From: Agelas oroides
Lineage: Eukaryota; Porifera; Demospongiae; Agelasida; Agelasidae
DNA: 64,000 bases
Direction of reading: 5' to 3'
Assembly: GCA_949130485.1 (NCBI GenBank)
Contig: OX422184.1
Span: 6,304,655-6,368,654, forward strand
The notes below the pieces were generated by a model. It was not told the DNA's origin. It did not search any database and was given only the letters and a program-made list of their open reading frames with translations. A program made the position numbers and the translations under genes. Every line of letters begins with the position of its first letter. Position 1 is the first letter of the stretch. Positions 23,468-53,900 of this stretch are shown here, piece after piece.

Positions 23468-23712
23468 TACATATACCCCAATTGACTCTACTACACTCTA
23501 CCATGGCTCTACTACATTCTACCATGGCTCTACTTGACTCTACTACACTCTACCATGCATCCACTTGGCTCCGCTTGACTCTACTACAACTGTAGCATGG
23601 CTCTACCTGGCTTTATTTGACTCTACTACACGGCTCTATAATTGGCTCTACATGACTCCACTTGACTATACTACTCTCTACCACAACCTCCCATGGCTCT
23701 AATTTGCTCTTC
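23468..23712. repeat. Satellite B, block 1 (diverged edge)
   Basis: About 245 bp of TCTAC-based repeat (GGCTCTACTTGACTCTACTACA and variants), more degenerate than the main array. It forms the left border of the satellite domain directly after the LINE relic and switches sharply to satellite A at about 23713. Confidence 0.85.
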
Positions 23713-25559: not shown

Positions 25560-25735
25560 CTTATGATTTCTCCTTGAGTCTCATGGTGCCTTGTGATATC
25601 TCATGGTGTTTCATGGTGTCTTATGATGTCTCACAGAGACATAATATACCTCAAGTTGTCTCATGATGTCTTAGGATGTAGTCTCAGGTTGTTTCATGGT
25701 GTCTTATGATGTCTCATGGAGGCTCATTGTGTGTC
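25560..25735. other. In-place inverted block within satellite A
   Basis: Only here does satellite A read in the opposite sense (TCTCATGGTGTCTTATGATG instead of its complement). Reverse-complemented, the block matches the phrase order at about 28482-28640: GAGCCTCCATGAGAC, ACAACCTGAGACTACATCC, then TTGAGGTATATTATGTCTC. It follows the same left neighbour, CATCGGACAACAT. It is therefore an inversion in place. With microhomology at the borders the length is 176-178 bp. Confidence 0.8.
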
Positions 25736-28700
25736 ACACCATGACACACCATGAGACTACATCATAAGACACCATGAGACTACATCATAAGACACCATGA
25801 GACATCATGAGACACCATGAGACTCCATGTGATATATTACAACTCCATTGAGAAATAAGACAATGAGACACCGTGAGACTCCATGAGACATCATAAGACA
25901 CCATGAGACACCATGAGACTCCAGGAGACATAAGTCACCATGAGACAACATCAGAAGACACCGTGGGACACCATGAGACATATTGAGTCTCCATGAGACA
26001 TCATAAGACACCATGAGAGATCATGAGCCTCCATGAGACATCATGAGACACCATCAGACACCATAGGACTCCATCAGACATCATAACACACCATGAGATG
26101 CCATGCGACTCCATGAGACATCATAAGACAGGATGAGGCAACATGAGACTCTACGAGATCTCCTAAGACACCATGAGGCGTCACAATGAAACACCACGAG
26201 ACTACATCCTAAGACACAATGAGACACCATAAGACATATTAAGACTTCATAAAGCATCATAAGACACCATGAGACATATTAAGACTACTTGAGACATCAT
26301 AAGACACCATGAGATAACATCAGAACACACCATGACACACCATGAGACGTATTGAGTCTCCAGGAGACATCACAAGACACCATGAGGCACCCTGAGACTT
26401 CATGAGACATCATAAGACACAATGAGACAACATCAGAACACACCGTGAGACACCATGAGACGTATTGAGTCTCCATGAGACATAAGACACCATGAGACAC
26501 CATCAGACGTATTAAGACTCCATGAGACATTATAAGACACTATGAGACTCCATGAGACATAAGACATCATGAGACACCATGAGACTCCATGAGACATCAT
26601 AAGACAGCATGAGACAACATGAGACATACTAAAACTCCATGAGACATCATCGGACACCATGAGACACAATGAGATATATTAAGACTCCATGAGACATCAT
26701 AAGACACTATGAGACACCATGAGACAACATCAGAATACACCGTAAGACGCCATGAGACGTATTGAGTCTCCATGAGACGTAAGACACCATGAGACACCAT
26801 CAGATGTATTAAGACTCCATGAGACATCATAAGACACTATGAGTCACCATGAGACTCCAAGAGATATAAGACCTCATGAGACACATCGAGACACCATGAG
26901 ACATCATAAGACAGCATCAGACAACATGAGACATACTAAGACACCATGATTCGTCACAATGAAACACCACGAGACTGCATCCTAAGACAAAATGAGACAC
27001 CATGAGACATATTAAGACTTGATAAAGACACCATGAGACACCATGAGATATATTAAGACTTCTTGAGACACCATGAGACACCATGAGCCATATTAAGACT
27101 GCTTCAGGCATCATAAGACACCATGAAACACCATGAGACCCCAGGAGACATGATAAGACACCATCAGACACCATAGGACTCCATTAGACATCATAAGACA
27201 CCATGACACACCATGAGACTACATCATACGACACCATGAGACACCATAAGACATATTAAGACTCCATGAGACGTCACAATGAGACACCCTGAGACGTCAT
27301 CATAAGAGACAATGAGACACCATAAGACACCATGAGACATATAAGACTCCATGAGACATCATAAGACACAATGAGACACCATGACACTCCATGAGACATC
27401 ATAAGACAACATGAGACACCATGACACTACATCATAAGACAGCATCAGACACCATGAGACATACTACGACTTCATGAGACATCATCAGACACCATGAGAC
27501 ACCATGAGACATATTGACTCTCCATGAGACATCATAAGACACCATGAGACACCTGAGACTCCATGAGACATCATAAGACACATGCAACACCATGAGACAT
27601 ATTACACATGAGACACCATGAGACATATATTAAGACTCGATGAGACATCATAAGACACCATGACAAACAATGAGATTGCATAAGACATAAGACACCATGA
27701 GACACCTTGAGACTCCGTGAGACATCATAAGACACCAGGAGACAATATCAGAAGACACCATGAGACACCATGAGACATATTGAGTCTCCATGAGACATCA
27801 TAAGACAGCATGAGACAACATGAGACGTACTAAGACTCCATGAGACATCATTGGACAACATGAGACTACATTATAAGACACCATGAGACTCCATGGGACA
27901 TCATAAGACAGCATGAGACACCATGAGACTCGAGACATAAGACAGCATGAGACACCATGAGACTCGAGACATAAGACAGCATGAGACACCATGAGTCACC
28001 ATGAGACATCATAAGACACCATGATACACCATGAGCCTCCATGAGACATAACACAGCATAAGACAACATGAGAGTCTACAAGACATCCTAAGACACCATG
28101 AGGCACCATGGGACTACATCATAAGACACAATGAGACACCATTAGACATATTAAGACTCCATCAGACATCATAAGACACAATTAGACACCATGAGACAAC
28201 ATCATAAGACACCTTGAGACTCCATCAGACATCATAAGACACCATGAGACAACATCAGAACACACCGTGAGACGCCATGAGAGGTATTGAGTCTCCATGA
28301 GATATAAGACACCATGAGACACCAGATGTATTAAGACTCCATGAGACATCATAAGACACTATGAGACTCCATGAGACATAAGACATCATGAGACACCATG
28401 AGACTCCATGAGACATCATAAGACAGCATGAGACATGAGACGACTAAGATTCCATGAGACATCATCGGACAACATGACACGCCATGAGCCTCCATGAGAC
28501 ATCATAAGACACCATGAGACAACCTGAGACTACATCCTAAGACATCATGAGACGCCTTGAGGTATATTATGTCTCCATGAGATATCCTAAGACACCATGA
28601 GGCACCATTAGACATCATTAGCGTCCATGAGACATCATAACACACCATAAGACACCATGAAACACCATGAGACCCCAGGAGACATAATAAGACACCATCA

Positions 28701-30047
28701 GACACCATAGGACTCCATTAGACATCATGACACACCATGAGACTACATCATAAGAAACAATGAGACACCATGAGATACCAAGAGACATATTAAGACTCTA
28801 TGAGACATAAGACACAATGAGACACCATGACACTCCATGAGACATCATAAGACACCATGAGCCTCCATGAGACATCATAAGACAGGGTGAGGCAACATGA
28901 GACTCTACGAGATATCCTAAGACACCATGATTCGTCACAATGAAACACCACGAGACTGCATCCTAAGACACAATGAGACACCATGAGACATATTAACACT
29001 TCTTGAGACACCTTGAGACACCATGAGCCATCTTCAGGCATCTTAAGACACCATGAAACACCATGAGACCCCAGGAGATATAATAAGACACCATCAGACA
29101 CCATAGGACTCCATTAGACATCATGACACACCATGAGACTACATCATAAGACACCATGAGACACCATAAGACATATTAAGACTCCATGAGACGTCACAAT
29201 GAGACACCCTGAGACTACATTATAAGACACAATGAGACACCATGAGACACCATGAGACATATTAAGACTCCATGAGACATCATAAGACACAATGAGACAC
29301 CATGACACTCCATGAGACATCGTAAGAGAACATGAGACACCATCACACTACGTTGTAAGATGGCATAAGACACCATGAGACATACTACGACTCCATGAGA
29401 CAACATCAGACACTATGAGACACCATGAGACTCCATGGGACATCATAAGACAGCATGAGACACCATGAGACTCGAGACATAAGACAGGCCCATGAGACAT
29501 ACTACGACTCCGTGAGACAACATCACACACCATGATACACCATGAGCCTCCATGAGACATAACACAGCATAAGACAACATGAGACTCTACAAGACATCCT
29601 AAGACACCATGAGGCACCATGAGACTACATTATAAGACACAATGAGACACCATGAGACATATTAAGACTCCATCAGACATCATAAGACACAATTAGACAC
29701 CATGAGACAGCATCATAAGACACCGTGAGACACCTTGAGACTCCATCAGACATCATAAGACAACATGGGACACCATGCAACAGATGTCTCCATGAGACAT
29801 CATAAGACACCATGAGACATCATGAGCCTCGATGAGACATCATAAGACACCATGAGACAACATCAGAAGAACACACCGTGAGACACCATGAGACGTATTG
29901 AGTCTCCATGAGACATAAGACACCATGAGACACCATCAGATGTATTAAGACTCCATGAGACATTATAAGACACTATGAGACTCCATGAGACATAAGACAT
30001 CATGAGACACCATGAGACTCCAGGAGAAAACATCAGAAGACACCATG

Positions 30048-30670
30048 GGACACCATGCAACATATTATGTCTCCATGAGACATCATAAGACACCATGAGA
30101 CAATATCAGAAGACACCATGAGACACCATGAGACATATTGAGTCTCCATGAGACATCATAAGACACCATGAGACAACATCAGAACACACCATGAGACACC
30201 ATGAGACGTATTGAGTCTCCATGAGACATAAGACACCATGAGACACCATCAGATGTATTAAGACTCCATGAGACATTATAAGACACTATGAGACTCCATG
30301 AGACATGAGACATCATGAGACACCATGAGACTCCAGGAGACAACATCAGAAGACACTATGGGACACCATGCAACATATTATGTCTCCATGAGACATCATA
30401 AGACACCATGAGACAATATCAGAAGACACCATGAGACACCATGAGACATATTGAGTCTCCATGAGACATCATAAGACACCATGAGACAACATCAGAACAC
30501 ACCATGAGACACCATGAGACGTATTGAGTCTCCATGAGACATAAGACACCATGAGACACCATCAGATGTATTAAGACTCCATGAGACATTATAAGACACT
30601 ATGAGACTCCATGAGACATACCATGAGACTCCATGAGACATCATAAGACAGCATGAGACAACATGAGACC
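30048..30670. repeat. Satellite A higher-order unit of 313 bp in tandem
   Basis: The phrase GGACACCATGCAACATATTA begins at 30048 and again at 30361, and the following order of modules is reproduced, including GAGACAATATCAGAAGACAC and the GTATTGAGTCTCC steps. An offset of 313 bp indicates unequal exchange or replication slippage at this scale. Confidence 0.7.
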
Positions 30671-32284
30671 TACTAAGACTCCATGAGACTACATTATAAG
30701 ACACCATGAGACACCATGAGATATATTAAGACTCCATCAGACATCATAAGACACTACGAGACACCATGAGACTCCATGAGACATCATAAGACAGCATGAG
30801 ACACCATGAGACTCGATGAGACATAAGACAGCATGAGACATCACGATACACCATGAGCCTCCATGAGACATAACACAGCATAAGACAACATGAGACTCTA
30901 CAAGACATCCTAAGACACCATGAGACACCATGAGACTACATCATAAGACACAATGAGACACCATGCGACATATTAAGACTCCATCAGACATCATAAGACA
31001 CAATTAGACACCATGAGACAACATCATAAGACACCATGAGACACCTTGAGACTCCATCAGACATCATAAGACACCATGAGACAACATCAGAAGACACCAT
31101 GGGACACCATGCAACATATTATGTCTCCATGAGACATCATAAGACACCATGAGACAACATCAGAACACACCGTGAGACACCATGAGATGTATTGACGTAT
31201 TGAGTCTCCATGAGACATAAGACACCATGAGAAACATCAGATGTATTAAGACTCCATGAGACATTATAAGACACTATGAGACTCCATGAGACATACCATG
31301 AGACTCCATGAGACATCATAAGACAGCATGAGACAACATGAGACATACTAAGACTCCATGAGACATCATCGGACAACATGAGACTACATTATAAGACACC
31401 ATGAGACACCATGAGATATATTAAGACTCCATCAGACGTCGTAAGACACTATGAGACACCATGAGACTCCATGAGACATATTAAGACATCTCGAGACACC
31501 ATGAGACACCATGAGCCATATTAAGACTACTTAAGACACCATGAAACACCATGAGACCCCAGGAGACATAATAAGACACCATCAGACACCATAGGACTCC
31601 ATTAGACATCATAAGACACCATGACACACCATGAGACTACATCATAAGACACCATGAGACACCATAAGACACCATAAGACATATTAAGACTCCATGAGAT
31701 GTCACAATGAGACACCCTGAGATGTCACAATGAGACACCCTGAGATTAAATCATAAGACACAATGAAAGATACTAAGACTCCATGAGACATCATCAGACA
31801 CGAGACACCATGACACTCAATGAGAAATCATAAGACAACATGAGACACCATGACACTGCATCATAAGACGGCATTAGACACCATGAGACATACTATGACT
31901 CCATGAGACATCATTAGACACCATGAGACACCATGAGTCTCAATGAGACATCATAAGACACATGCGACACCATGAGACATATTACAATTACATGAGACAA
32001 CATAAGGCATCATGAGACACCATGAGACTCCATCTGACATCATAAGACACCATGATACACCATGAGACATATTAAGACTCGATGAGACATCATAAGACAA
32101 CATGACAAACAATGAGATTGCATAAGACATAAGACACCATGAGACACCTTGAGACTCCATCAGACATAATAAGACACCATGAGACAACATCAGAACACAC
32201 CGTGAGACGCCATGAGAGGTATTGAGTCTCCATGAGATATAAGACACCATGAGACACCATCAGATGTATTAAGACTCCATGAGA

Positions 32285-35200
32285 CATCATAAGACACCAC
32301 CAGACACCATGAGACTCCATGAGACATCATAACACACCATGAGATGCCATGCAACTCCATGAGACATCATAAGACAGGATGAGGCAACATGAGACTCTAC
32401 GAGATATCCTAAGACACCATGAGACGTCACAATGAAACACCATGAGACTACATCCTAAGACACAATGAGACACCATGAGACATATTAAGACTTCTTGAGA
32501 CATCATAAGACACTATATGAGACATCAGAACACACCATGAGACACCATGAGACGTATTGAGTCTCCAGGAGACATCACAAGACACCATGAGACACCCTGA
32601 GACTTCATGAGACATAAGAACCATGAGACAACATCAGAACACACCGTGAGACGCCATGAGATGTATTGAGTCTCCATGAGACATAAGACACCATGAGACA
32701 CCATCAGATGTATTAAGACTCCATGAGACATCATAAGACACTATGAGACACCATGAGACTCCATGAGACATAAGACATCATGAGACACCATGAGACTCCA
32801 TGAGACATCATAAGACAGCATGAGACAACATGAGACGACTAAGACTCCATGAGACATCATCGGACAACATGACACGCCATGAGCCTCCATGAGACATCAT
32901 AAGACACCATGAGACAACCTGAGACTGCATCCTAAGACATCATGAGACACCTTGAGGTATATTATGTCTCCATGAGACATCATAAGACACCATGAGACAC
33001 CATAAGACATCATAAGACAGGGTGAGGCAACATAAGACTCTACAAGATATCCTAAGACAGCATGATTCGTCACAATGAAACACCACGAGACTACATCCTA
33101 AGACACAATGAGACACCATGAGACATATTAAGACTTGATAAAGACACCATGAGACACCATGAGACATATTAAGACTTCTTGAGACACCATGAGACACCAT
33201 GAGCCATATTAAGACTGCTTCAGGCATCATGATCATAAGACACCATGAAACACCATGAGACCCCAGGAGACATAATAAGACAACATCAGACAACAAAGGA
33301 CTCCATTAGACATCCTAAGACACCATGACACACCATGAGACTACATCATAAGACACCATGAGACACCATAAGACATATTTAGACTCCATGAGGCGTCACA
33401 ATGAGACACCCTGAGACTACATCATAAGACACAATGAGACACCATGAGACATATTAAAACTCCATGAGACATCATAAGACACAATGAGACACCACGACAC
33501 TCCATGAGACATCATAAGACACTATGAGACACCATGAGACTCCGTGAGACATAAGACAGCATGAGACACCATGAGACTCGAGACATAACACAGCATGAGA
33601 CACCATGAGTCACCATGAGACATAAGACACCATAATACACCATGAGCCTCCATGAGACATAACACAGCATAAGACAACATGAGACTCTACAAGACATCCT
33701 ATAAGACACCATGAGGCACCATGAGACTAGATCATAAGACACAATGAGACACCATGAGACACATTAAGACTCCATCAGACATCATAAGACACAATTAGAC
33801 ACCATGAGACAACATCATAAGACACCATGGGACAACATATTATGTCTCCATGAGACATCATAAGACACCATGAGACACCATGAGACATCATGAGCCTCCA
33901 TGAGACATCATGAGACACCATCAGACACCATGAGATTCCATGAGACATCATAACACACCATGAGACGCCATGCGACTCCATGAGACATAAGACAGGATGA
34001 TGCAACATGAGACTCTACGAGATATCCTAAGACACCATGAGGTGTCACAATGAAACACCATGAGACTACATCCTAAGACACAATGAGACACCATGAGACA
34101 TATTAAGACTTGATAAAGCATCATAAGACACCATGAGACACCATGAGAAATCTTGAGACATCATAAGACACCATGAGGCAACATCAGAACACACCATGAC
34201 ACATATTGAGTCTCCAGGAGACATCACAAGACACCATGAGACACCCTGAGACTTCATGAGACATCATAAGACACCATCAGACAACATCAGAACACACCGT
34301 GAGACGCCATGAGATGTATTGAGTCTCCATGAGACATAAGACACCATGAGACAGTATAAGACACTATGAGACTCCATGAGACATACCATGAGACTTCATG
34401 AGACATCATAAGACACCATTAGACAACATCAGAACACACCGTGAGACGCCATGCGATGTATTGAATCTCCATGTGACATAAGACACCATGAGACACCATC
34501 AGATGTATTAAGACTAGATGAGACATCATAAGACACTATGAGACACCATGAGACTCCATGAGACATAAGACATCATGAGACAAAATGAGTCTCCATGAGA
34601 CATCATAAGACAGCATGAGACAACATGAGACATACTAAGACTCCATGAGACATCATCGGACAACATGAGACTACATTATAAGACACCATGAGATATATTA
34701 AGACTCCATGAGACATCATAAGACACTATGAGACACCATGAGACTCCATGGGACATCATAAGACAGCATGAGACACCATGAGACTCGATGAGACATAACA
34801 CAGCATAAGACAACATGAGAGTCTACAAGACATCCTAAGACACCATGAGGCACCATGAGAGTACATCATAAGACACAATGAGACACCATGAGACAACATC
34901 ATAAGACACCATGAGACAACATCAGAACACACCGTGAGACACCATGAGACGTATTGAGTCTCCATGAGACATAAGACACCATGAGACACCATCAGATGTA
35001 TTAAGACTCCATGAGACATAAGACACTATGAGACACCATGAGACTCCATGAGACATAAGACATCATGAGACACCATGAGACTCCATGAGACATCATAAGA
35101 CAGTATGAGACAACATGAGACGACTAAGACTCCATGAGACATCATCGGACAACATGACACGCCGTGAGCCTGCATGAGACATCATAAGACACCATGAGAC

Positions 35201-38026
35201 ACCATGAGACATCATTAGCGTCCATGAGACATCATAACACACCATAAGACACCATGAGACTCCATGAGACATCATAAGACAGGGTGAGGCAACATGAGAC
35301 TCTACGAGATATCCTAAGACACCATGATTCGTCACAATGAAACACCACGAGACTACATCCTAAGACACAATGAGACACCATGAGACATATTAAGACTTGA
35401 TAAAGACACCATGAGACACCATGAGACATATTAAGACTTCTTGAGACACCATGAGACACCATGAGACATATTAAGACTTCTTGAGACACCATGAGACATC
35501 ATGAGCCATATTAAGACTGCTTCAGGCATCATAAGACACCATGAAACACCATGAGACCACAGGAGACATGATAAGACACCATCAGACACCATAGGACTCC
35601 ATTAGACATCATGACACACCATGAGACTACATCATAAGACACCATCAGACACCATAAGACATATTAAGACTCCATGAGACGTCACAATGAGACACCCTGA
35701 GACTACATCTTAAGACACAATGAGACACCATGAGACATATTAAGACTCCATGAGACATCATAAGACAACATGAGACACCATGACACTACATCATAAGACG
35801 GCATGAGACACCATGAGACATACTACGACTCCATGAGACATCATCAGACACCATGAGACACCATGAGTCTCCATGAGACACCCTGAGACTACATCATAAG
35901 ACACATTGAGACACCATGAGACATATTAAGACTGCATAAGACACAATGAGACACCATGACACTCCATGAGACATCATAAGACACCATGAGACTCCTGAGA
36001 CTCCATGAGACATCACAAGACAAATGCGACACCATGAGACATATTACAACTACATGAGACAACATAAGACATCATGAGACACCATGAGATTCCATCAGAC
36101 ATCATAAGACACCATGATACAACGTGAGACTACATTGTAAGACACCAAGAGACATATTAAGACTCGATGAGACATCATAAGACACCATGAGACAACCTGA
36201 GACTACATCCTAAGACATCATGAGACACCTTGAGGTATATTATGTCTCCATGAGACATCATAAGACACCATGAGACACCATGAGACATCATTAGCGTCCA
36301 TGAGACATCATAGCACACCATAAGACACCATGAGACTCCATGAGACATCATAAGACAGGGTAAGGCAACATGAGACTCTACGAGATATCCTAAGACACCA
36401 TGATTCGTCACAATGAAACACCACAAGACTACATCCTTAGACACCATGAGACACCATGAGACATATTAAGACTTCTTGAGACACCATGAGACACCATGAG
36501 CCATATTAAGACTGCTTCAGGCATCATGATCATAAGACACCATGAAACACCATGAGACCCCAGGAGACATAATAAGACACCATCAGACACCATAGGACTC
36601 CATTAGACATCCTAAGACACCATGACACACCATGAGACTACATCATAAGACACCATGAGACACCATGAGACTACATCATAAGACACCATGAGACACCATA
36701 AGACATATTTAGACTCCATGAGACGTCACAATGAGACCCCCTGAGACTACATCATAAGACACAATGAGACACCATGAGACATCTTAAGACTCCATGAGAC
36801 ATCATAAGACACAATGAGACACCACGACACTCCATGAGACATCATAAGACACTATGAGACACCATGAGACTCCATGAGACATAAGACAGCATGAGACACC
36901 ATGAGACTCGAGACATAAGACAGCATGAGACACCATGAGTCACCATGAGACATCATAAGACACCATAATACACCATGAGACATAACACAGCATAAGACAA
37001 CATGAGACTCTACAAGACATCCTATAAGACACCATGAGGCACCATGAGACTAGATCATAAGACACAATGAGACACCATGAGACATATTAAGACTCCATCA
37101 GACATCATAAGACACAATTAGACACCATGAGACAACATCATAAGACACCATGAGACACCTTGAGACTCCATCAGACATAACACAGCATAAGACAACATGA
37201 GACTCTACAAGACATCCTATAAGACACCATGAGGCACCATGAGACTAGATCATAAGACACAATGAGACACCATGAGACATATTAAGACTCCATCAGACAT
37301 CATAAGACACAATTAGACACCATGAGACAACATCATAAGCCACCATGAGACACCTTGAGACTCCATCAGCCATCATAAGACACCATGAGACAACATCAGA
37401 AGACACCATGGGACACCATGCAACATATTATGTCTCCATGAGACATCATAAGACACCATGAGACACCATGAGACATCATGAGCCTCCATGAGACATCATG
37501 AGACACCACCAGACACCATGAGACTCCATGAGACATCATAACACACCATGAGATGCCATGCAACTCCATGAGACATCATAAGACAGGATGAGGCAACATG
37601 AGACTCTACGAGATATCCTAAGACACCATGAGACGTCACAATGAAACACCATGAGACTACATCCTAAGACACAATGAGACACCATGAGACATATTAAGAC
37701 TTCTTGAGACATCATAAGACACTATATGAGACATCAGAACACACCATGAGACACCATGAGACGTATTGAGTCTCCAGGAGACATCACAAGACACCATGAG
37801 ACACCCTGAGACTTCATGAGACATAAGAACCATGAGACAACATCAGAACACACCGTGAGACGCCATGAGATGTATTGAGTCTCCATGAGACATAAGACAC
37901 CATGAGACACCATCAGATGTATTAAGACTCCATGAGACATCATAAGACACTATGAGACACCATGAGACTCCATGAGACATAAGACATCATGAGACACCAT
38001 GAGACTCCATGAGACATCATAAGACA
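32285..38026. repeat. Satellite A long-range duplication, offset 5,209 bp
   Basis: About 530 bp at 32285-32817 recurs at 37494-38026 at a constant offset of 5,209 bp (for example AGACACCACCAGACACC at 32292 and 37501). A 69-codon repeat-derived frame is identical in both. The intervening 4.7 kb contains other shared phrases in altered order. This entry spans both copies. Confidence 0.65.
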
Positions 38027-38519
38027 GGGTGAGGCAACATGAGACTCTACGAGATGTCCTAAGACACCATGATTCGTCACAAAGAAACACCACGAGACTA
38101 CATCCTAAGACACAATGAGACACCATGAGACATATTAAGACTTGATAAAGACACCATGAGACACCATGAGACATATTAAGACTTCTTGAGACACCATGAG
38201 ACACCATGAGCCATATTAAGATGGCTTAAGGCATCATAAGACACAATGAAACACCATGAGACCCCAGGAGACATAATAAGACACCATCAGACACCATATG
38301 ACTCCATTAGACATCATAAGACACCATGACACACCATGAGACTACATCATAAGACACCATGAGACACCTTAAGACATATTAAGACTCCATGAGACATCAC
38401 AATGAGACACCCTGAGACTACATCATAAGATGTGTCGAGTGGGGGAGCACCAACACAGCTGGCACATCGATGTTCAAAATTTCACACATACATAAAGTGT
38501 GAGGTTAAAACATAAAGGG

Positions 38520-38635
38520 AGATGGGGATGGGGCATTTATGGCTTAATTGGATGGGGCATTTTATGGCTTAAATGGGTGTGGCATTTATGGCTTAAATGG
38601 GTGGGGCATTTATGGCTCAAATGGATGGGGCGGTT
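38520..38635. repeat. Minisatellite, about 24-bp unit, five copies
   Basis: The phrase GGGGCATTTATGGCTTAAAT, with single-base variants (GTGGC, CATTTTATGG, CTCAAATGG), returns every 24 or so bases five times. Confidence 0.8.
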
Positions 38636-39130
38636 AGTTACTGTTTTTGGGAGATATACTCAAAAAAATACTGGTCTTCAGGGGAGTACCCTTTCCGGTC
38701 CTCGCATGACCACGGGTTTCGGTCCCTTTGAACTCCCGACCTGTGGCCTACTACAGAAAGGGCGGGACCACTCCCCGCCTAAGGTTTGCTTTGAGGAGCC
38801 CAGCTTTTGGTTGGCACATATATAGTGCTATGGGCATTCACAGTGCTATGGGCATTCACAGTGCTATAAATATTCAAATTACTAAACAAATTGGGGGTGG
38901 GGCTCAATGGGTGGAGTTATCATATTAACTTATAATTGGGGCGAGCCCCACATTAACGTGTTGAACGAAAGCGGTGTCTGTATGTATGTATGTAGCTATG
39001 TATTCCTACGTCGTACCGTAAATATATTCGTATTCGTTGAATAACAATACTCGCGTTGTGAAAAATTTGAAAATACACGTGTAGCTATTTCCCGGCAGTC
39101 TCACAGCCAAACGTAAATCTAAGGGTAGTT

Positions 39131-39308
39131 GATATGGAACCATCGTGTTCTCGAAGTGAAGCTTCGGGGTTGTCGATATGGCACCATCTTGTTCTCGAGG
39201 TGACCGCGAAGGACCCTGCAAACAACGGAGGAGAAAAGGAAACGTAGAATCGAACGTGACAGAGCGCGCCGCGCTGCTGAAACATCAGAGCAAAAAGAAC
39301 ACAGACTG
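39131..39308 (+). pseudogene. Arg-rich N-terminal fragment, transposon-type protein
   Basis: A 44-bp tandem pair (GATATGG(A/C)ACCATC at 39131 and 39175) contains the start MAPSCSRGDREGPCKQRRRK (ATG at about 39179). After a one-base slip in an A run the frame continues as KRRIERDRARRAAETSEQKE and HRL, ending at a donor-like CTG|GTAAGC (39308). RERARRAAETxEQRExRL-type charged repeats are familiar from Helitron- or PIF1-associated and other repetitive proteins of sponges and cnidarians. That assignment is from memory and tentative. The slip breaks the frame. The end is in phase 0, as is the next exon candidate. Confidence 0.4.
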
Positions 39309-39355
39309 GTAAGCCTAGGAAAAAAATAGATTGCTGAGGTAGTCTCGCGAGACCG

Positions 39356-39444
39356 TAGCCTCGTTCCCAGGCCCCGCCCAGCTTTCCGTCGCTTGCAGTA
39401 CAGAAAAGCTACGCCAAGCTGGGCGGGGCCTGGGAACGAGGCTA
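39356..39444. repeat. Perfect 29-bp inverted repeat, loop 31
   Basis: 39356-39384 (TAGCCTCGTTCCCAGGCCCC and on) and 39416-39444 are exact inverted copies around a 31-base loop. A third, partial copy (GTAGCCTCGTC...CCTGGGAACGA) lies just right, to 39490. TAGCCTCGTTCCCAGG-type ends are known from small hairpin transposons in marine invertebrates. Here the two ends are nearly all that is present. Confidence 0.8.
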
Positions 39445-39624
39445 AGACTACTGCTGAGTAGCCTCGTCTTCCCTTCGGGCCTGGGAACGACTAACTGCTG
39501 ATGTACCAGAGATCAGACCAACGACAGATGGGTGCAACTACAGCGGCAACGTGCCGCCTACTTTGGTTACATAAGTGCAAAGGAATAACCAACCAGATTG
39601 TTGTTCTTCTCTCCTTCATGCCAG

Positions 39625-39801: not shown

Positions 39802-39820
39802 GTGAGTATTATTAGTTGTT

Positions 39821-41047
39821 TGTGAGACACCATGAGACATACTAAGACTCCATGAGACATCATAAGACACAATGAGACACCATGACACTCAATGAGAAAT
39901 CATAAGACAACATGAGACACCATGACACTACATCATAAGACGGCATGAGACACCGTGACACATACTATGACTCCATGAGACATCATCAGACACCATGAGA
40001 CACCATGAGTCTCCATGAGACATCATAAGACACATGCGACACCATGAGACATATTACAACTACACGAGACAACATAAGACATCATGAGACACCATGAGAC
40101 TCCATCAGACATCATAAGACACCATGATACAACATGAGACTACACTGTAAGACACCATGAGACACCATGAGACATATTAAGACTCGATGAGACATAAGAC
40201 AACATGACAAACAATGAGATTGCATAAGACACCATGAGACACCTTGAGACTCCATGAGACATCATAAGACACCATGAGACAACATCAGAACACACCATGA
40301 GACACCATGAGATGTATTGAGTCTCCAGGAGACATCATAAGACACCATGAGACACCCTGAGACTCCATGAGACATCATAAGACAGGGTGAGGCAACATGA
40401 GACTCTACGAGATATCCTAAGACACCATGATTCGTCACAATGAAACACCACAAGACTACATCCTAAGACACAATGAGACACCATGAGACATATTAAGACT
40501 TCTTGAGACATAAGACACCATGAGACATCAGAACACACCGTGAGACGCCATGAGAGGTATTGAGTCTCCATGAGACATAAGACACCATGAGACACCATCA
40601 GATGTATTAAGACTCCATGAGACATAAGACACTATGAGACACCATGAGACTCCATGAGACATAAGACATCATGAGACACCATGAGACTCCATGAGACATC
40701 ATAAGACAGCATGAGACAACATGAGACATACTAAGACTCCATGAGACCATGAGATATATTAAGACTCCATGAGACATCATAAGACACTATGAGACACCAT
40801 GAGACTCCATGAGACATCCTAAGACAGCATGAGACACCATGAGACTCGATGAGACATAAGACATAAGACAGCATGAAACACCATGAGTCGCCATGAGACA
40901 TCATAAGACACCAGGAAACACCATGAGCCTCCATGAGACATAACACAGCATAAGACAACATGAGACTCTACAAGACATCCTAAGACACCATGAGGTACCA
41001 TGAGACTACATCATAAGGCACAATTAGACACCATGAGACATATTAAA
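39821..41047. repeat. Satellite A, block 2 (1.2 kb)
   Basis: Same GAGAC modules and orientation as the main array, including phrases such as CATGATTCGTCACAATGAAA and CATCAGATGTATTAAGAC. It passes directly into satellite B at about 41048 (ATTAAAACTCTGCCTCTAC). Confidence 0.95.
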
Positions 41048-41783
41048 ACTCTGCCTCTACTTGACTCTACATGACTCTACTACATTCTACCATGCCTCTA
41101 CTTGGCTCTACTTGATTCCACTACACTCTACCATGTCTCTACTCCATTGTACCATTGCTCTACTTGACACTACATGACTCTACTACATTCTACAGTGGTT
41201 CTACATGACTCTACTTGACTCTACTACACTCTAGCATGGCTCTACTTGACTCCACTACATTCTACCATGGCTCTACTACATTCTACCATAGCACTACTTC
41301 CCTGTATATGACTCTACTACATTCTACCATGGCTCTACTTGACTCTACTTGGCACTACTTCACTCTACTACACTCTACCATGCCTCTACTCCATTGTACT
41401 TGACACTACATGACTCTACTACACTCTACCATGGATCTACTTGACCCTACTTGATTCTACTACACTCTATACCATGGCTCTACCTGCCTCTACTACATTC
41501 TACCATGCCTCTACTTGACTCTACATGACTCTACTACATTCTACCATGCCCCTACTTAACTCTACTTGACTCTACTACACTCTAGCATGGCTCTACTTGG
41601 CTCTACTTGACTCTAGTACACTCTACCATGGATCTACTCCATTGTACTATGCCTATACTTTACACTACATGACTCTACTTGACTCAACTACACTCTACCG
41701 TGGCTCTACTTGGCTCTATACTACACTCTACCATGGCTCTACTTGACTCTACAACACTCTACCATGACTCTACTTGACTCTAC
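41048..41783. repeat. Satellite B, block 2
   Basis: TCTAC modules (CTCTACTTGA, CTCTACTACA, CTCTACCATGG) running up to the TTAA-flanked insertion at 41784. They continue with the same phase style beyond it at 42733. Confidence 0.95.
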
Positions 41784-41787
41784 TTAA

Positions 41788-42728
41788 GGTGGCAGGGAAC
41801 CCTGTGTTTTCAAGGTCAACAAACCTGGAATCCAAGCAGATAGAATTCTTTGTGTAAACTTTTAGCGCACAGTCCGTTTTGGGAGTCTTCATCCGTTCAC
41901 TGTCTGTAAAATTGGGGATTTTCCCCATTTCCTGTCAGCATTGACATCCAATAATCAGTTTATAATTAAGTTAGTTAAGATGTGGCCTGGCGGAACCCCT
42001 CATGTGGTGGTCGGAACTTTGAAGATAAGCTTAGATCGACTTGAAAAAAATAAAAAGAAAAATGTAAGAGTTTGGTAGAGTGCTGTAATGTCAGTAGCTG
42101 TGAGTAGTGTGAAGTACCTGCTTGTGAAAGCAAGCTTGTGTCTAGAAGCAGTAGAAAGGCCACAGTGGCCAAGACTGTACTTATTGGGTAGATCGTGGCC
42201 CGGTGCTTGGAGTGCTGGGCTGGGCTTTAACTAGAATGCGCAATATATCGTTGGTCCTACGTTGGCGTTGACAAGAAAGCTGCAGAGGAGTTGTGTGGGG
42301 AACAGAACCGTGACAGGTGGGGCTAGTAATGCTTGCTTCCACTCGTGAATGAGCCCCTCCCGTAGACAAGCTATGAATTTTTTGAAATGTGCATTCATTT
42401 TAGTGCAGTCAAAGTTGTCCATTCCAAGAGTAGCGACAAACACGAGTCTAGCCTGACTTTGAGAGTAGCTCTGAACAAAAGCTGGCACAGACAGATTTGA
42501 GATACATTGGTGGTTAGGACGCTACCTACAGTGAGCATGTAGATGCATCCATCGAGTGGCAATTTTGGGTTCATGAATATATTAATGACCTACTAAAACC
42601 CTTTTTAAAATTAGGCAAAGCAAGATTACCCTAAAGCAAACCCTAACCCTGAAACTAGGAGTAACCCTGGTCCTGACTGTAACCCAAGTTTATGTTTTCG
42701 TTAACATCCGCCAAAAGACTTCGCCACC
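41788..42728. mobile_element. TTAA-flanked insertion in satellite B (island 2)
   Basis: TTAA (41784-41787) precedes GGTGGC and TTAA (42729-42732) follows GCCACC. The ends thus form short inverted repeats inside a duplicated TTAA, with satellite B resuming on both sides. That is the signature of a piggyBac-type target. The 941-bp body has no transposase. Minus-strand frames of 62 and 85 codons (42181-42369 and 42231-42488) carry no domain I know. Near its right end is a CCCTAA-rich stretch (about 42629-42690). The terminal repeats are short, so superfamily assignment rests mostly on TTAA. Confidence 0.7.
42629..42690. repeat. Degenerate CCCTAA/TAACCC tract
   Basis: ACCCTAAAG, AACCCTAACCCTGAAAC, GTAACCCTGG and GTAACCC occur within 60 bp. 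This is a telomere-like but irregular motif inside the TTAA-flanked insertion. It is too short and impure to be a telomere. Confidence 0.5.
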
Positions 42729-45067
42729 TTAATACCATGGCTCTACCTGGCTCTACTACATTCTATCATGCCTATACTTGACTCTACAGGACTCTACTAC
42801 ATTCCACCATGCCTCTATTTGACTCTACGTGAGCCTACTGCACACTACCAAGGCTCTACTTGGCTCTACATGACTATACTACACTCTAGCATCACTCTAC
42901 TTGGTTCCATTTGACTCTACTACACTCTAGCATGGCTCTACTTGGCTCTACTTCACTCTACTACACTCTAGCATGGCTCTACTTGGCTCTACTTGACTCT
43001 ACTACATTCTACAATGGCTTACTCCATGGCCTCTACTTGACACTACATGACTCTACTACATTCTACCATGGCTCTACCTGACTCTACTCCACACTACTAT
43101 GGCTCTACTTGGCTCTACTTCATTCTACTACACTCTACCATGGCATGGCTCTACCTGTCTCTACTACATTCTACCATGCCTCTACTACATTCTACCATGC
43201 CTCTACTTGACACTACATGACTCTACTACATTCTACCACAGCTCGACCTAACTCTACTACACCCTACCATGGCTCTCCTTGGCTCTACTTGACTCCACTA
43301 CACTATACCATTGCTCTACCTGGCTCTACTTCTCTCTATACTACATTCTACCATGGCTCTACTACATTCTACCATAGCTCTGTTTAACTTTACTTGGCTC
43401 TACATGACTCTACTACATTCTACCATGGCTCTACTTGACTCTACGTCAGTCTACTGCACTCTATCATGGCTCTACTTGGCTCTACTTGACTCTACTACAC
43501 TCTAGCATGGCTCTACTTGGCTCTACTTGACTCTACTACACTCTACCATGTTATACTCCATTGTACTATGCCTCTACATGACACTACATGACTCTACTAT
43601 ATTCTACCATGGCTCTACCTGACTCTACTCCACACTACTATGGCTCTATTTGGCTCTACTTGATTCTACTACACTCTACCATGGCATGGCTCTACCTGTC
43701 TCTACTACATTCTACCATGGCTCTACCTGACTCTACTACACCCTACCATGGCTCTCCTTGGCTCTACTTGACTCCACTACACTATACCATTGCTCTACCT
43801 GCCTCTACTTGTCTCTACTACATTCTACCATGGCTCTACTACATTCTACCATTGCTCTACTTGACTCTACTTGACTCTACATGACTCTACTACATTCCAC
43901 CATGCCTCTACTTGACTCTATGTGTGTCTACTGCACTCTAGCATGGCTCTACTTGGATCTACTTGACTCTACTACACTCTAGCATGGTTCTACTTGGCTC
44001 TACTTGACTCTACTACACTCTACCATGGTATACTCCATTGTACTATGCCTCTACTTGACACTACATGACTCTACTATATTCTACCATGGCTCTACCTGAC
44101 TCTACTCCACACTACTATGGCTCTACTTGGCTCTACTTGATTCTACTACACTCTACCATGGCATGGCTCTACCTGTCTGTACTACATTCTATCATGCCTC
44201 TACTTGACTCTACTGCACTCTACTACATTCTACCATGGCTCTACCTGACTCTACTCCACCCTACCATGGCTCTCCTTGGCTCTACTTGACTCCACTACAC
44301 TATACCATTCCTCTACCTGCCTCTACTTGTCTCTACTACATTCTACCATGGCTCTACTACATTCTACCATTGCTCTACTTGACTCTACTTGACTCTCCAT
44401 GACTATACTTGACTCTACGTGAGTCTACTGCACTCTAGCATGGCTTTAGTTGGATCTACTTGTCTGTACTACACTCTAGCATGGCTCTACTTGGCTTTAC
44501 TTGACTCTACTACAGTGTAGCATGGCTCTACGTGGCTCTACTTGACTCTACTACACACTAGCATGGCTCTACTTGACTCTAGTATGGCTCTACTTGGCTT
44601 TACTTAGCTCTACTTGATTCTACTCCATTGTACTTGATACTACATGACTCTACTGCATTCTACCATGGCTCTACATGACTCTACTACACATTAACATGGC
44701 TCTACTTGACCCTACTTGATACTACTACACTCTACCATGGCTCTACCTGTCTCTACTACATTCTACCATGCCTCTACTTGACTCTACATGACTCTACTTC
44801 GTTCTACGTTGACTCTACTTGGTTCTCCTTGACTGTACTACACTCTACGATGGTTCTACGTGGCTCTCCTTGGCCCTACTTGACTCTACATGACTCTACT
44901 ACATTCTAACCATAGCTCTACTCGACTCTACTGGACTTGACGTGACTCTACTACACTCTACGATGGCTCTACTTGACTGTACTTCACTCTACTACACTCT
45001 AGCATGGCTCTACTTGGCTCTACTTGACTCTACTACATTCTACCATGGATCTACTCCATTGTACTAT

Positions 45068-46247
45068 GCCTCTACTTTACACTACATGACTCTACTTGAC
45101 TCAACTACACTCTACCATGGCTCTACTTGGCTCTACTACACTCTAGCATGGCTCTACTTGGCTCTACTTGACTCTACTACACTCTACCATGGATCTACTC
45201 CATTGTACTATGCCTCTACTTTACACTACATGATTCTACTTGACTCAACTACACTCTACCATGGCTCTACTAGGCTCTTCTTGATTCTTCTACACTCTAC
45301 CAAGGCATGGCTCTACCTGTCTCTACTACATTCTACCATGCCTCTACTTGACTCAACTGCACTCTACTACATTCTACCATGGCTCTACCTGACTCTACTA
45401 CACCCTACCATGGCTCTCCTTGGCTCTACTTGACTCCACTACACTATACCATTGCTCTACCTGGCTCTACTTGTCTCTACTACATTCTACCATGGCTCTA
45501 CTACATTCTACCATTGCTCTACTTGACTCTACATGACTCTACTACATTCCACCATGCCTCTACTTCACTCTATGTGTGTCTACTGCACTCTAGCATGGCT
45601 CTACTTGGCTCTACTTGACTCTACTACACTCTACCATGGTATACTCCATTGTACTATGCCTCTACTTTACACTACATGACTCTACTTGACTAAACTACAC
45701 TCTACCATGGCTCTACTTGGCTCTACTACACTCTAGCATGGCTCTACTTGGCTCTACTTGACTCTACTACACTCTACCATGGATCTACTCCATTGTACTA
45801 TACCTCTACTTTACACTACATGATTCTACTTGACTCAACTACACTCTACCATGGCTCTACTTGGCTCTACTTGATTCTTCTACACTCTACCAAGGCATGG
45901 CTCTACCTGTCTCTACTACATTCTACCATGCCTCTACTTGACTCTGCTGCACTCTACTACATTCTACCATGGCTCTACCTGACTCTACTACACCCTACCA
46001 TGGCTCTCCTTGGCTCTACTTGACTCCACTACACTATACCATTGCTCTACCTGGCTCTACTTGTCTCTACTACATTCTACCATGGCTCTACTACATTCTA
46101 CCATTGCTCTACTTGACTCTACTTGACTCTGCATGACTCTACTACATTCCACCATGCCTCTACTTGACTCTATGTGTGTCTACTGCACTCTAGCATGGCT
46201 CTACTTGGCTCTACTTGACTCTACTACACTCTACCATGGTATACTCC
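45068..46247. repeat. Satellite B tandem unit of about 590 bp, two copies
   Basis: The phrase GCCTCTACTTTACACTACATG, with the following order of modules, occurs at 45068 and 45659. The repeat-derived frames end with the same peptide at 45433 and 46023 (offset 590). Confidence 0.65.
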
Positions 46248-46330
46248 ATTGTACTATGCCTCTACTTGACACTACATGACTCTACTATATTCTACCATGG
46301 TTCTACCTGACTCTACTCCACACTACTATG

Positions 46331-49300
46331 GCTCTACTTGGCTCTACTTGATTCTACTACACTCTACCATGGCATGGCTCTACCTGTCTCTACTACATTC
46401 TGTCATGCCTCTACTTGACTCTACTGCACTCTACTACAATCTACCATGGCTCTACCTGACTCTACTACACCCTACCATGGCTCTCCTTGGCTCTACTTGA
46501 CTCCACTACACTATACCATTGCTCTACCTGGCTCTACTTGTCTCTACTACATTCTACCATGGCTCTACTACATTCTACCATTGCTCTACTTGACTCTACT
46601 TGACTGTACATGACTATACTTGACTCTACGTAAGTCTACTGCACTCTAGCATGGCTTTAGTTGGATCTACTTGTCTGTACTACACTCTAGCATGGATCTA
46701 CTTGGTTTTACTTGACTCTACTACAGTGTAGCATGGCTCTACGTGGCTCTACTTGACTCTGCTACACACTAGCATGGCTCTACTTGGCTCTACGTGACTC
46801 TATTACAGTCTACCATTGCTCTACTCCATTTCCTCTACTTGACACTACATGACTCTACTTCATTCTACCATGGCTCTACCTGACTCTACTCCACACTACC
46901 ATGGCTCTACTTGGCTCTACTTGATTCTACTACACTCTACCATCGCATGGCTCTACCTGTCTTTCCTACTACCATGGCTCTACTCCATTGTACCATAGCT
47001 CTACTTGACACTACCTGACTCTACTACATTCTACAGTGGTTCTACATGACTCTACTAGACTCTATTACACTCTAGCATGTCTCTACTTGGCTCTACTTGA
47101 CTCTACTGCACTCTAGCATGGCTCTACTTGGCTCTACTTGACTCTACTACTCTCTACCATGCATCTACTCCATTGAACTATGCCTCTATTTTACACTACA
47201 TAACTCTACTTGACTCTACTACACTCTACCAAGGCTCTACTTGGCTCTACTTGACTCCACTACACTATACCATTGCTCTACCTGGTGCTACTTGTCTCTA
47301 CTACATTCTACCATGGCTCTACTACATTCTACCATAGCTCTACTTAACTCTATATGACGCCACTACATTCTACCATGGCTCTACTTGACTCTCCTTGATT
47401 CTGCTACACTCTACCTTGGGTCTACTTGGCTCTACTTGATTCCACTACACTCTACCATGTCTCTACTCCATTGTAGCATGGCTCTACTTGATACTACATG
47501 ACTCTACTACATTCTACAATGGCTCTACTTGACTCTACTACACTGTGCCATGGCTCTACTTGCTTTACTGGACTCTACTACACTATACCATTGCTCTACT
47601 TGGTTCTATTTCTGTCTACTCCCTTCTACCATGGCTCTACTTCAATCTACCATAGTTCTACTTGACTTTATCGACTCTCCTACATTCTACCATGGCTCTA
47701 CTTGACTCTACTACATTCTACCATGGGTCTATTTGGCTCTACTTGACTGTACTACATTCTACCATGGCTCTGCATTTGTCTCCTTTGATCTACTAACACT
47801 CTACCATAGCTCTACTTGGCTCTACTTGACTCTACTACACACTACCTTGGCTCTACTACATTCTACCATGACTCTATGTGACTCTACTTGACTCTACTAC
47901 ACACTACCATGGCTCTACCTGGTTCTTCTACATTCTTCCATGCCTCTACTTAACTCTACATGGCTCTACTACATTCTACCATGGGTCTATTTGGCTCTAC
48001 TTGACTGTACTACACTCTACCATTGCACTATGTCGGTCTCCTTGGATCTATACTAACACTCTACCATGCCTCTACTTGGATCTACTTGACACTACTACAC
48101 TCTAGCATGGCTCTACTTTGCTCTACTTGACTCTATTACATTCTACCATGGCTCTACTACATTCTACCATAGCGCTACTTCACTGTATATGACTCTACTA
48201 CATTCTTCCATGACTCTACTTGACTCTAGCATGGCTCTACTTGGCTCTACTTGGCTCTACTTGATTCTACTCCATTGTACTTGATACTACATGACTCTAC
48301 TGCATTCTACCATGGCTCTACATGACTCTACTACACTCTAACATGGCTCTACTTGACCCTACTTGATACTACTACACTCTACCATAGTTCTACCTGTCTC
48401 TACTACATTCTACCATGCCTCTACTTGACTCTACATGACTCTACTTCGTTCCACGTTGACTCTACTTGGTTCTCCTTGACTGTACTACACTCTACGATGG
48501 TTCTACGTGGCTCTCCTTGGCCCTACTTCACTCTACATCACTCTACTACATTCTACCATGGCTCTACTTGACTCTACTTGACTTTACATGACTCTTCTAC
48601 ATTCTACGATGGCTCTACTTGACTGTACTTCACTCTACTACACTCTAGCATGGCGCTACTTGGCTCTACTTGACTCAACTACACTCTACCATGGCTCTAC
48701 TTGCCTCTACTACACTCTAACATGGCTCTACTTGGCTCTACTTGATTTTACTACACTCTACCAAGGCATGGCTCTACCTGTCTCTATTACATTCTACCAT
48801 GCCTCTACTTGACTCTACTGCACTCTACTACATTCTACAATGGCTCTACCTGACTCTACTACACCCTACCATGGCTCTCCTTGGTTCTACTTGACTCCAC
48901 TACACTATACCATTGCTCTACCTGGCTCTACTTGTCACTACTACATTCTACCATGGCTCTACTACATTCTACCATTGCTCTACTTGACTCTAGTTGACTC
49001 TACATGACTCTACTACATTCCACCATGCCTCTACTTGACTCTACGTGTGTCTACTACACTCTAGCATGGCTCTACTTTGATCTACTTGACTCTACTGCAC
49101 TCTAGCATGGCTCTACTTGACTCTACTTGACTCTACTACACTCTACCATGGTATACTCCATTGTACTATGCCTCTACTTGACTCTACATGACTCTACTAT
49201 ATTCTACCATGGCTCTACCTGACTCAACACTACACTACTATGGCTCTACTTGGCTCTACTTGATTCTACTACACTCTACCATGGCATGGCTGTACCTGTC

Positions 49301-50974
49301 TCTACTACATTCTACCATGGCTCTACCTGACTCTACTACACCCTACCATGGCTCTCCTTGGCTCTACTTGACTCCACTACACTATACCATTGCTCTACCT
49401 GGCTCTACTTGTCTCTACTACATTCTACCATGGCTCTACTACATTCTACCATTGCTCTACTTGACTCTACTTGACTCTACATGACTCTACTACATTCCAC
49501 CATGCCTCTACTTGACTCTACGTGTGTCTACTGCACTCTAGCATCGCTCTACTTGGATCTACTTGACTCTACTACACTCTAGCATGGTTCTACTTGGCTC
49601 TACTTGACTCTACTACACTCTACCATGGTATACTCCATTGTACTATGCCTCTACTTGACACTACATGACTCTACTATATTCTACCATGGCTCTACCTGAC
49701 TCTACTCCACACTACTATGGCTCTACTTGGCTCTACTTGATTCTACTACACTATACATGGCATGGCTCTACCTGTCTCTACTACATTCTATCATGCCTCT
49801 ACTTGACTCTACTGCACTCTACTACATTCTACCATGGCTCTACCTGACTCTACTACACCCTACCATGGCTCTCCTTGGCTCTACTTGACTCTACTGCACT
49901 ATACCATCGCTCTACCTGCCTCTACTTGTCTCTACTACATTCTACCATGGCTGTACTACATTCTACCATTGCTCTACTTGACTCTACTGGACTCTACATG
50001 ACTATACTTGACTCTACGTGAGTCTACTGCACTCTAGCATGGCTTTAGTTGGATCTACTTGACTGTACTACACTCTAGCATGGCTCTACTTTGCTCTACT
50101 TAACTATACTACACTCTAGCATGGCTCTACTTGGCTCTACTTGGCTCTCCTTGACTCTACTACACTCTAGCATGGCTCTACTAGGCTCTAAATGACTCTC
50201 CTACACTCTACCATGGCTCTACTCCATTGTATTATGCCTCTACTTGACACTACATGACTGTACCACATTCTAGCATAGCTCTACTTGACTCTATATGAAT
50301 CTACTACATTCTACCATGGCTCTACTTGACTCTACTTTGCTCTACTTGACTCTACTGCACTCTACCATGGCTCTACTCCATTGTACATGACACTACATGA
50401 CTCTACTGCATTCTACCATGCCTCTACATGACTCTACTACATCCTACCATTGCTCTACTTGACTCTACTTGATTCTACTGCACTCTACCATGGCTCTACC
50501 TGTCTCTACTACATTCTACCATGCCTCTACTTGACTCTACATGACTCTACTACATTCTACCGTGCCCCTACTTGACTCTACATGCCTCTACTACATTCTA
50601 CCATGGCTCTACTTGACTCTACTTCACTCTACTTCATTCTACTACACTCTAGCATGGCTCTACTCTCTACTACACTCTACCATGGATCTATTCCATTGTA
50701 CTATGCCTCTACTTTACACTACATGACTCTACTTGACTCAACTTCACTCTACCGTGGCTCTACTTGGCTCTACTACACTCTACCATGACTCTACTTCACT
50801 CTACTACACTCTACCATGGCTCTTCTTTACTCTACGTAATCCTACTACACAATACCATGGCTCTACCTGGCTCAACTACATTCTACCATGCCTCTACTTG
50901 ACTCTACATGACCCTACTACACTCCACCATGCCTCTATGTGACTGTACGTGAGTCTATACTGCACTCCACCATG
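46331..50974. repeat. Satellite B 4,644-bp tandem duplication, copy 1
   Basis: At least nine repeat-derived frames recur at exactly +4,644 bp (47128/51772, 47878/52522, 48353/52997, 48588/53232, 49188/53832, 49665/54309, 50541/55185, 50582/55226 and 50733/55377). The copy begins at GCTCTACTTGGCTCTACTTG (46331) and ends in TGCACTCCACCATG (50974), directly abutting copy 2. Only scattered substitutions were seen in spot comparison. Confidence 0.9.
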
Positions 50975-53900
50975 GCTCTACTTGGCTCTACTTGATTCTA
51001 CTACACTCTACCATGGCATGGCTCTACCTGTCTCTACTACATTCTACCCTGCCTCTACTTGACTCTACTGCACTCTACTACAATCTACCATGGCTCTACC
51101 TGACTCTACTACACCCTACCATGGCTCTCCTTGGCTCTACTTGACTCCACTACACTATACCATTGCTCTACCTGGCTCTACTTGTCTCTACTACATTCTA
51201 CCATGGCTCTACTACATTCTACCATTGCTCTACGTGACTCTACTTGACTGTACATGACTATACTTGACTCTACGTAAGTCTACTGCACTCTAGCATGGCT
51301 TTAGTTGGATCTACTTGTCTGTACTACACTCTAGCATGGATCTACTTGGTTTTACTTGACTCTACTACAGTGTAGCATGGCTCTACGTGGCTCTACTTGA
51401 CTCTGCTACACACTAGCATGGCTCTACTTGGCTCTACGTGACTCTATTACAGTCTACCATTGCTCTACTCCATTTCCTCTACTTGACACTACATGACTCT
51501 ACTTCATTCTACCATGGCTCTACCTGACTCTACTCCACACTACCATGGCTCTACTTGGCTCTACTTGATTCTACTACACTCTACCATCGCATGGCTCTAC
51601 CTGTCTTTCCTACTACCATGGCTCTACTCCATTGTACCATAGCTCTACTTGACACTACCTGACTCTACTACATTCTACAGTGGTTCTACATGACTCTACT
51701 AGACTCTATTACACTCTAGCATGTCTCTACTTGGCTCTACTTGACTCTACTACACTCTAGCATGGCTCTACTTGGCTCTACTTGACTCTACTACTCTCTA
51801 CCATGCATCTACTCCATTGAACTATGCCTCTACTTTACACTACATAACTCTACTTGACTTTACTACACTCTACCAAGGCTCTACTTGGCTCTACTTGACT
51901 CCACTACACTATACCATTGCTCTACCTGGTGCTACTTGTCTCTACTACATTCTACCATGGCTCTACTACATTCTACCATAGCTCTACTTAACTCTATATG
52001 ACGCCACTACATTCTACCATGGCTCTACTTGACTCTCCTTGATTCTGCTACACTCTACCTTGGGTCTACTTGGCTCTACTTGATTCCACTACACTCTACC
52101 ATGTCTCTACTCCATTGTAGCATGGCTCTACTTGATACTACATGACTCTACTACATTCTACAATGGCTCTACTTGACTCTACTACACTGTGCCATGGCTC
52201 TACTTGCTCTACTGGACTCTACTACACTATACCATTGCTCTACTTGGTTCTATTTCTGTCTACTCCCTTCTACCATGGCTCTACTTCAATCTACCATAGT
52301 TCTACTTGACTTTATCGACTCTCCTACATTCTACCATGGCTCTACTTGACTCTACTACATTCTACCATGGGTCTATTTGGCTCTACTTGACTGTACTACA
52401 TTCTACCATGGCTCTGCATTTGTCTCCTTTGATCTACTAACACTCTACCATAGCTCTACTTGACTCTACTTGACTCTACTACACACTACCTTGGCTCTAC
52501 TACATTCTACCATGACTCTATGTGACTCTACTTGACTCTACTACACACTACCATGGCTCTACCTGGTTCTTCTACATTCTTCCATGCCTCTACTTAACTC
52601 TACATGGCTCTACTACATTCTACCATGGGTCTATTTGGCTCTACTTGACTGTACTACACTCTACCATTGCACTATGTCGGTCTCCTTGGATCTATACTAA
52701 CACTCTACCATGCCTCTACTTGGATCTACTTGACACTACTACACTCTAGCATGGCTCTACTTTGCTCTACTTGACTCTATTACATTCTACCATGGCTCTA
52801 CTACATTCTACCATAGCGCTACTTCACTGTATATGACTCTACTACATTCTTCCATGACTCTACTTGACTCTAGCATGGCTCTACTTGGCTCTACTTGGCT
52901 CTACTTGATTCTACTCCATTGTACTTGATACTACATGACTCTACTGCATTCTACCATGGCTCTACATGACTCTACTACACTCTAACATGGCTCTACTTGA
53001 CCCTACTTGATACTACTACACTCTACCATAGTTCTACCTGTCTCTACTACATTCTACCATGCCTCTACTTGACTCTACATGACTCTACTTCGTTCTACGT
53101 TGACTCTACTTGGTTCTCCTTGACTGTACTACACTCTACGATGGTTCTACATGGCTCTCCTTGGCCCTACTTCACTCTACATCACTCTACTACATTCTAC
53201 CATGGCTCTACTTGACTCTACTTGACTTTACATGACTCTTCTACATTCTACGATGGCTCTACTTGACTGTACTTCACTCTACTACACTCTAGCATGGCGC
53301 TACTTGGCTCTACTTGACTCAACTACACTCTACCATGGCTCTACTTGCCTCTACTACACTCTAACATGGCTCTACTTGGCTCTACTTGATTTTACTACAC
53401 TCTACCAAGGCATGGCTCTACCTGTCTCTATTACATTCTACCATGCCTCTACTTGACTCTACTGCACTCTACTACATTCTACAATGGCTCTACCTGACTC
53501 TACTACACCCTACCATGGCTCTCCTTGGTTCTACTTGACTCCACTACACTATACCATTGCTCTACCTGGCTCTACTTGTCTCTACTACATTCTACCATGG
53601 CTCTACTACATTCTGGTAGAGTGTAGTAGAGTCAAGTAGAGTCAAGTAGAGCCATGCTAGAGTGCAGTAGAGTCAAGTAAATCAAAGTAGAGCCATGCTA
53701 GAGTGTAGTAGACACACGTAGAGTCAAGTAGAGGCATGGTGGAATGTAGTAGAGTCATGTAGAGTCAACTAGAGTCAAGTAGAGCAATGGTATGGTATAC
53801 TCCATTGTACTATGCCTCTACTTGATTCTACATGACTCTACTATATTCTACCATGGCTCTACCTGACTCAACACTACACTACTATGGCTCTACTTGGCTC

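Follow-up and report, generated by a model that had tools for sequence, protein, structure and literature searches.

Results

Two satellite arrays, each with one reversed block

The stretch of DNA analysed here, hereafter the window, comprises 64,000 nucleotides of the genome of the sponge Agelas oroides (C2:6304655-6368654) and was studied within an assembly of 259.3 Mb in 141 contigs, which was searched as a whole. The right part of the window consists mostly of two strand-asymmetric satellites, placed by a strand-aware k-mer segmentation (either orientation allowed for each satellite) at 23710-38427 and 39825-41050 for satellite A, and at 41051-41784 and 42734-62839 for satellite B, whose array resumes at C2:6368937, past the window end. 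Within the window each satellite contains a single short block in reversed orientation, and these two micro-inversions are the subject of this work. The features involved are the following (positions in the window):

23710-38427, forward strand except for one block: satellite A array of 10-bp units around AGAC (segmentation, tandem repeats)
25560-25735, reverse strand: satellite A block in inverted orientation; length 176 bp, or 178 bp with limits at 25559-25736 (junction refinement, flip-back match)
42734-62839, forward strand except for one block: satellite B array of CTCTAC-based 10/11-bp units (segmentation)
46323-50966, forward strand: first copy (copy 1) of a tandem duplication of 4,644 bp within satellite B; approximate limits
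48971-49147, forward strand: unreversed version of the B block, located in duplication copy 1 (sequence comparison)
50967-55645, forward strand: copy 2 of the duplication, which holds the inversion, limits approximate
53615-53791, reverse strand: satellite B block in inverted orientation; length 177 bp, or 179 bp with limits at 53614-53792 (compared with its forward copy)

Segmentation of the whole window returned reversed blocks at 25561-25733 in satellite A and 53613-53796 in satellite B, and no other. In contig coordinates the refined blocks lie at C2:6330214-6330389 for A and C2:6358269-6358445 for B. A first-pass annotation of this DNA had placed one reversed block of 176-178 bp at 25560-25735 in satellite A, which was confirmed by segmentation and junction refinement, and had described satellite B as reversed only at 53615-53791. 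Segmentation bore out the latter location as well; the length of exactly 177 bp claimed for this block did not stand, since limits of 177 and 179 bp tie exactly, one edge base pair being self-complementary. The forward copy proposed for comparison was the right one: when the B block is flipped back, positions 53315-54091 match 48671-49447 over 777 bp with three mismatches, all of them substitutions, and no gap. The B block is an exact, derived, in-place inversion without net gain or loss of sequence. A small inverted triplication at this site was considered and rejected, because there is no duplication and the forward counterpart has been replaced exactly. Outside the block, the two head-to-tail copies of this young duplication differ at 15 of 4,475 positions. 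Copy 1 and the other closest copies of the block are all in forward orientation, so the reversal is the derived state and probably postdates the 4,644-bp duplication.

The A block has no close copy of the kind available for B, and its limits of 176 or 178 bp are those favoured by array words across the restored junctions; flipping it back raised its best array match from 218 to 478 bits. The inverted microhomology is 1 bp in both window inversions; no inverted repeats of at least 3 nt were found at the block edges, longer imperfect repeats further out not having been searched. Words over the left junctions, of 28 bases for B and 26 bases for A, each have a single occurrence genome-wide when up to two mismatches are allowed.

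The two satellites had been described as unlike in sequence and in unit length, and this holds; yet they have in common a strongest period of 10.28 bp, next to which satellite A shows a nearly equal second peak at 9.88. Satellite A also shows phase slips of +3 and -3 bases, visible as 13- and 7-base gaps between AGAC motifs, which occur 56 and 38 times, respectively.

Orientation switches in the satellites across the genome

The next 80 kb of C2, almost all of it satellite B, contained one more reversed block (6398805-6399005, refined to 200-206 bp). Satellite B is abundant in the genome, with 20,519 exact matches of one of its 20-mers and an extent of ~10 Mb estimated from the density of this 20-mer in C2. 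A loose pattern for divergent switches in satellite B gave 50 forward and 64 reverse-strand matches, and the loose convergent pattern 64 and 60; among the matches listed, these correspond to 42 divergent and 43 convergent distinct places. For satellite A, 57 + 57 convergent and 28 + 29 divergent matches were obtained, with 6 and 11 for a control of the divergent pattern.

The letters were read at 30 switch sites of satellite B (24 of the 42 divergent places and 6 of 14 distinct strict convergent places among the matches listed), together with two A sites (C10, C19) and 200 kb of arrays; sites were taken broadly in list order, blind to length. Among the 30 B sites there were 14 small blocks closed on both sides, two fold-back duplications, two isolated islands and 12 sites without closure in the stretch read (L038, L045, L046, L047, L050, L053, L054, L055, L057, L058, L061 and L063), one of which, L057, was later closed at about 584 bp by coordinates and counted. 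Left out of the length counts were the fold-back duplications C16:1883929 (97 bp, 100% identical to its neighbour) and C3:8173252 (519 bp, 99.5%), the islands L033 and L048, and C19:3263928 in satellite A, a block of 222 bp flanked by no more than 45 and 38 bp. At a B orientation switch, a perfect 52-bp palindrome resembling a fold-back joint was observed in two identical copies (C16:4621537-4621588 and 4624954-4625005). In C10:2163939-2227863, satellite A is interspersed with unclassified spacers whose sizes recur (two of 577 bp, three of 644 bp), which suggests a composite repeat.

These data bear on whether the reversed blocks are real rearrangements. A sequencing or assembly artefact, in which consensus or graph errors would have inserted the reversed segments, is one alternative; the first-pass annotation had named a sequencing or polishing artefact as the main one. 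The fact that both window junctions are singletons in the assembly speaks in its favour. Other switches, however, recur in copies. In C11:7291351-7443498, a long satellite A-like region that appears to be a higher-order repeat carrying switches, the same switches are found across many repeat copies that differ in sequence. A C15 block of about 175 bp, within 5297604-5297835, has both of its junctions recurring at equal spacing 8,747 bp away, within 5306351-5306582, by coordinates, although its divergent junction strings are identical, so that this particular pair might be a false duplication. Finally, one C3 divergent junction occurs in two tandem copies that differ at 2 of 41 bases; the left-side alignment stopped at the junction of the first copy, and the left side is thus not shown to be shared. 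Altogether, the recurrences in C15, C11 and C3 suggest that satellite flips of this kind are inherited and amplified, and we regard an artefact as improbable, and less likely than had been feared.

Sampled block lengths concentrate at 166-222 bp

The refined set comprises 19 blocks, including the two of the window, with lengths of 29, 30, 44, 71, 106, 139, 166, 176, 176, 176, 177, 183, 188, 198, 205, 206, 218, 222 and 378 bp. Several of these values are uncertain by some bases: 188 could be 177-188, 222 could be 210-222, 166 is 152 by segmentation, and 378 stands for 376-378. Junctions paired by coordinates only, among the matches listed, add four blocks of about 38, 175, 584 and 590-680 bp, where 175 is the midpoint between bounds of 149 and 201, the letters not having been seen. 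Setting aside the two window blocks, 10 of the 17 resolved blocks fall at 166-222 bp, and 11 of 21 after addition of the four coordinate-only ones. A genome-wide peak in inversion length had been proposed as a check, and in this partial sample the concentration at 166-222 bp, with one further block at 376-378 bp, answers to it as a broad range with no spike at 177.

The detection procedure was evaluated with simulated inversions in the C2 array. At every length tried from 30 to 700 bp the divergent pattern detected 27-45% of them (14% at 20 bp), and segmentation recovered 98-100% of them (40% at 20 bp). Detection is thus roughly independent of length between 30 and 700 bp, so the length mode is not produced by the method.

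A simple explanation would be that these are ordinary micro-inversions with no size rule, the equal lengths in the window being coincidental and the excess at 166-222 bp a small-sample effect. Against it, and besides the absence of a length bias in detection, stands the densest 34% band: no log-uniform draw out of 20,000 and 10,000, respectively, matched its occupancy (10/17 and 11/21), which a fitted lognormal reached with frequencies of 0.0009 and 0.0001. Several results, on the other hand, weigh against a size rule. The exact length is not specially enriched, as 4 of 17 resolved blocks fall in the densest 10% band (chance 0.14 and 0.28 under the two models) and 5 of 21 with the coordinate-only blocks (0.03 and 0.08), which weakens the earlier claim that the equal lengths in the two satellites are remarkable. 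For the 20% band the fitted lognormal gives the less favourable values of 0.015 (17 blocks) and 0.006 (21 blocks), and restricting the set to the 14 blocks of at least 50 bp brings its values to 0.012 (34% band) and 0.084 (20% band). Of the 17 resolved blocks, seven fall outside 166-222 bp, lengths span 29 to about 680 bp, and blocks of about 584 and 590-680 bp as well as many unclosed switches are present. In addition, band widths were set only once the lengths were known, and the sample is of limited size and coverage. On balance, we give ordinary micro-inversions a minor share of the probability, above that of an artefact. The length mode is a nucleosome-sized range and not a spike at 177, and in this small sample it is poorly fitted by smooth length distributions. 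The idea of nucleosome-sized flips passes a first, small, post hoc test; taken alone, identical lengths of 177 are not strong evidence.

Joints show little homology

All 14 blocks tested (the 19 less C1:26373742, L034, L039, L059 and L064) matched the arrays better when flipped back, indicating in-place inversions and not inserted reversed copies. A single inversion copied to several loci, considered as the source of the repeated length, was rejected: unrestored blocks match each other across the junctions at only about 71-76%, the restored blocks score higher in 14/14 cases, and the window junctions are unique.

Inverted microhomology at the joints was 0, 1, 2 and 3-4 bp in 5, 9, 2 and 3 of the 19 blocks, respectively, with a maximum of 4 bp; the null chance of at least 3 bp is about 0.03. 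Joints thus carry little homology (0-1 bp in 14/19), with usually no usable inverted repeat, a pattern closer to end joining than to switching at inverted repeats. A mild excess of blocks with at least 1 bp (14/19 versus a null of about 0.41) counts on the opposite side. Breakpoints centred on CATG were also considered and rejected: both satellites contain such palindromes, yet breakpoints were not clearly enriched near them, with 3 of 28 within 1 bp (null 0.071), 5 of 28 within 5 bp (null 0.264) and 13 of 28 within 8 bp (null 0.393).

The main rival to a breakage mechanism is lagging-strand template switching, in which the flap of an unprocessed Okazaki fragment would copy the opposite strand over about one nucleosome-sized Okazaki fragment and switch back, leaving a reversed block. 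Such a process would resemble the small inverted triplications seen in FEN1/rad27 mutants, whose reversed segment is likewise about the size of a nucleosome, with a median of 160 bp and breakpoints near nucleosome midpoints and Okazaki ends; loss of rad27 also raises simple inversions there (PMC13334657). The fold-back duplications C16:1883929 and C3:8173252 show that events of this type do occur in these arrays. However, the FEN1-type events are duplication-inversion-duplication structures with flanking duplications and junctions of about 6 bp (PMC13334657), whereas the window B event has neither; and inverted microhomology of 3-4 bp is found in only 3 of 19 blocks, with none longer. Template switching retains in our view a real but modest chance, the highest among the rivals.

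Other features of the window

Short minisatellites of 28-29 bp units, mutually related, GCAATCTnGAGATTGC-like and near-palindromic, lie at positions 5798-5920 and 6484-6575. A Pfam scan of six flanking reading frames returned no family.

Discussion

The explanation to which we lean, tentatively, is breakage on both sides of one nucleosome followed by reversed end joining, which agrees with the range of block sizes, the exact in-place structure and the short microhomology. Two double-strand breaks, in neighbouring linkers according to the first-pass annotation, would flank a single nucleosome, the freed fragment of roughly 170-220 bp would turn round, and end joining, with 0-4 bp of microhomology, would seal it back in place. 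Under this explanation both window blocks would be germline micro-inversions of restricted size. That a fragment freed by two breaks may be religated in flipped orientation is described in PMC11879418. Germ cells, in turn, are reported to contain nucleosome-derived circles of ~180 and ~360 bp (PMC10581685), and the flip may be the chromosomal counterpart of these circles. This extrachromosomal circular DNA, which arises from oligonucleosomal fragments, resembles the window flips in its size classes (~180 and ~360 bp) and in joining at microhomology; the difference is that the fragment becomes a circle there, whereas here the segment stays in the chromosome, reversed (PMC10581685).

The 10.28-bp period of both satellites is near the helical repeat of nucleosomal DNA, and it may be speculated that it favours wrapped nucleosomes.

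Micro-inversions as such are already known. Those between human and chimpanzee (PMC8755829) are likewise exact in-place reversals of short segments, but they measure 17-33 bp and all have flanking inverted repeats of 3-75 nt, as opposed to 176-179 bp and 1 bp of inverted microhomology in the window pair. What is new here is the occurrence of micro-inversions in satellites with a nucleosome-sized mode and weak homology; within the terms searched, no earlier report of nucleosome-sized in-place inversions in satellites was found in the open-licence literature. The interpretation offered in the first-pass annotation is, overall, partly supported.

A wider proposition, possible but somewhat more doubtful than the breakage mechanism itself, is that chromatin sets a length quantum for germline inversions, so that the satellites record flips of one nucleosome (about 170-220 bp), and sometimes of two, rejoined without the need of inverted repeats. 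Inversions of only a few hundred bases usually escape notice; a strand-asymmetric satellite exposes each of them and lets lengths and joint structures be tallied. Should a full census bear out the nucleosome-sized mode, it would link chromosomal micro-inversions with the nucleosome-sized circles of germ cells, and the arrays would be a natural assay of germline breaks in relation to chromatin. Strand-asymmetric repeat arrays would then be, if the proposition is true, passive recorders of nucleosome-sized DNA breakage in the germline.

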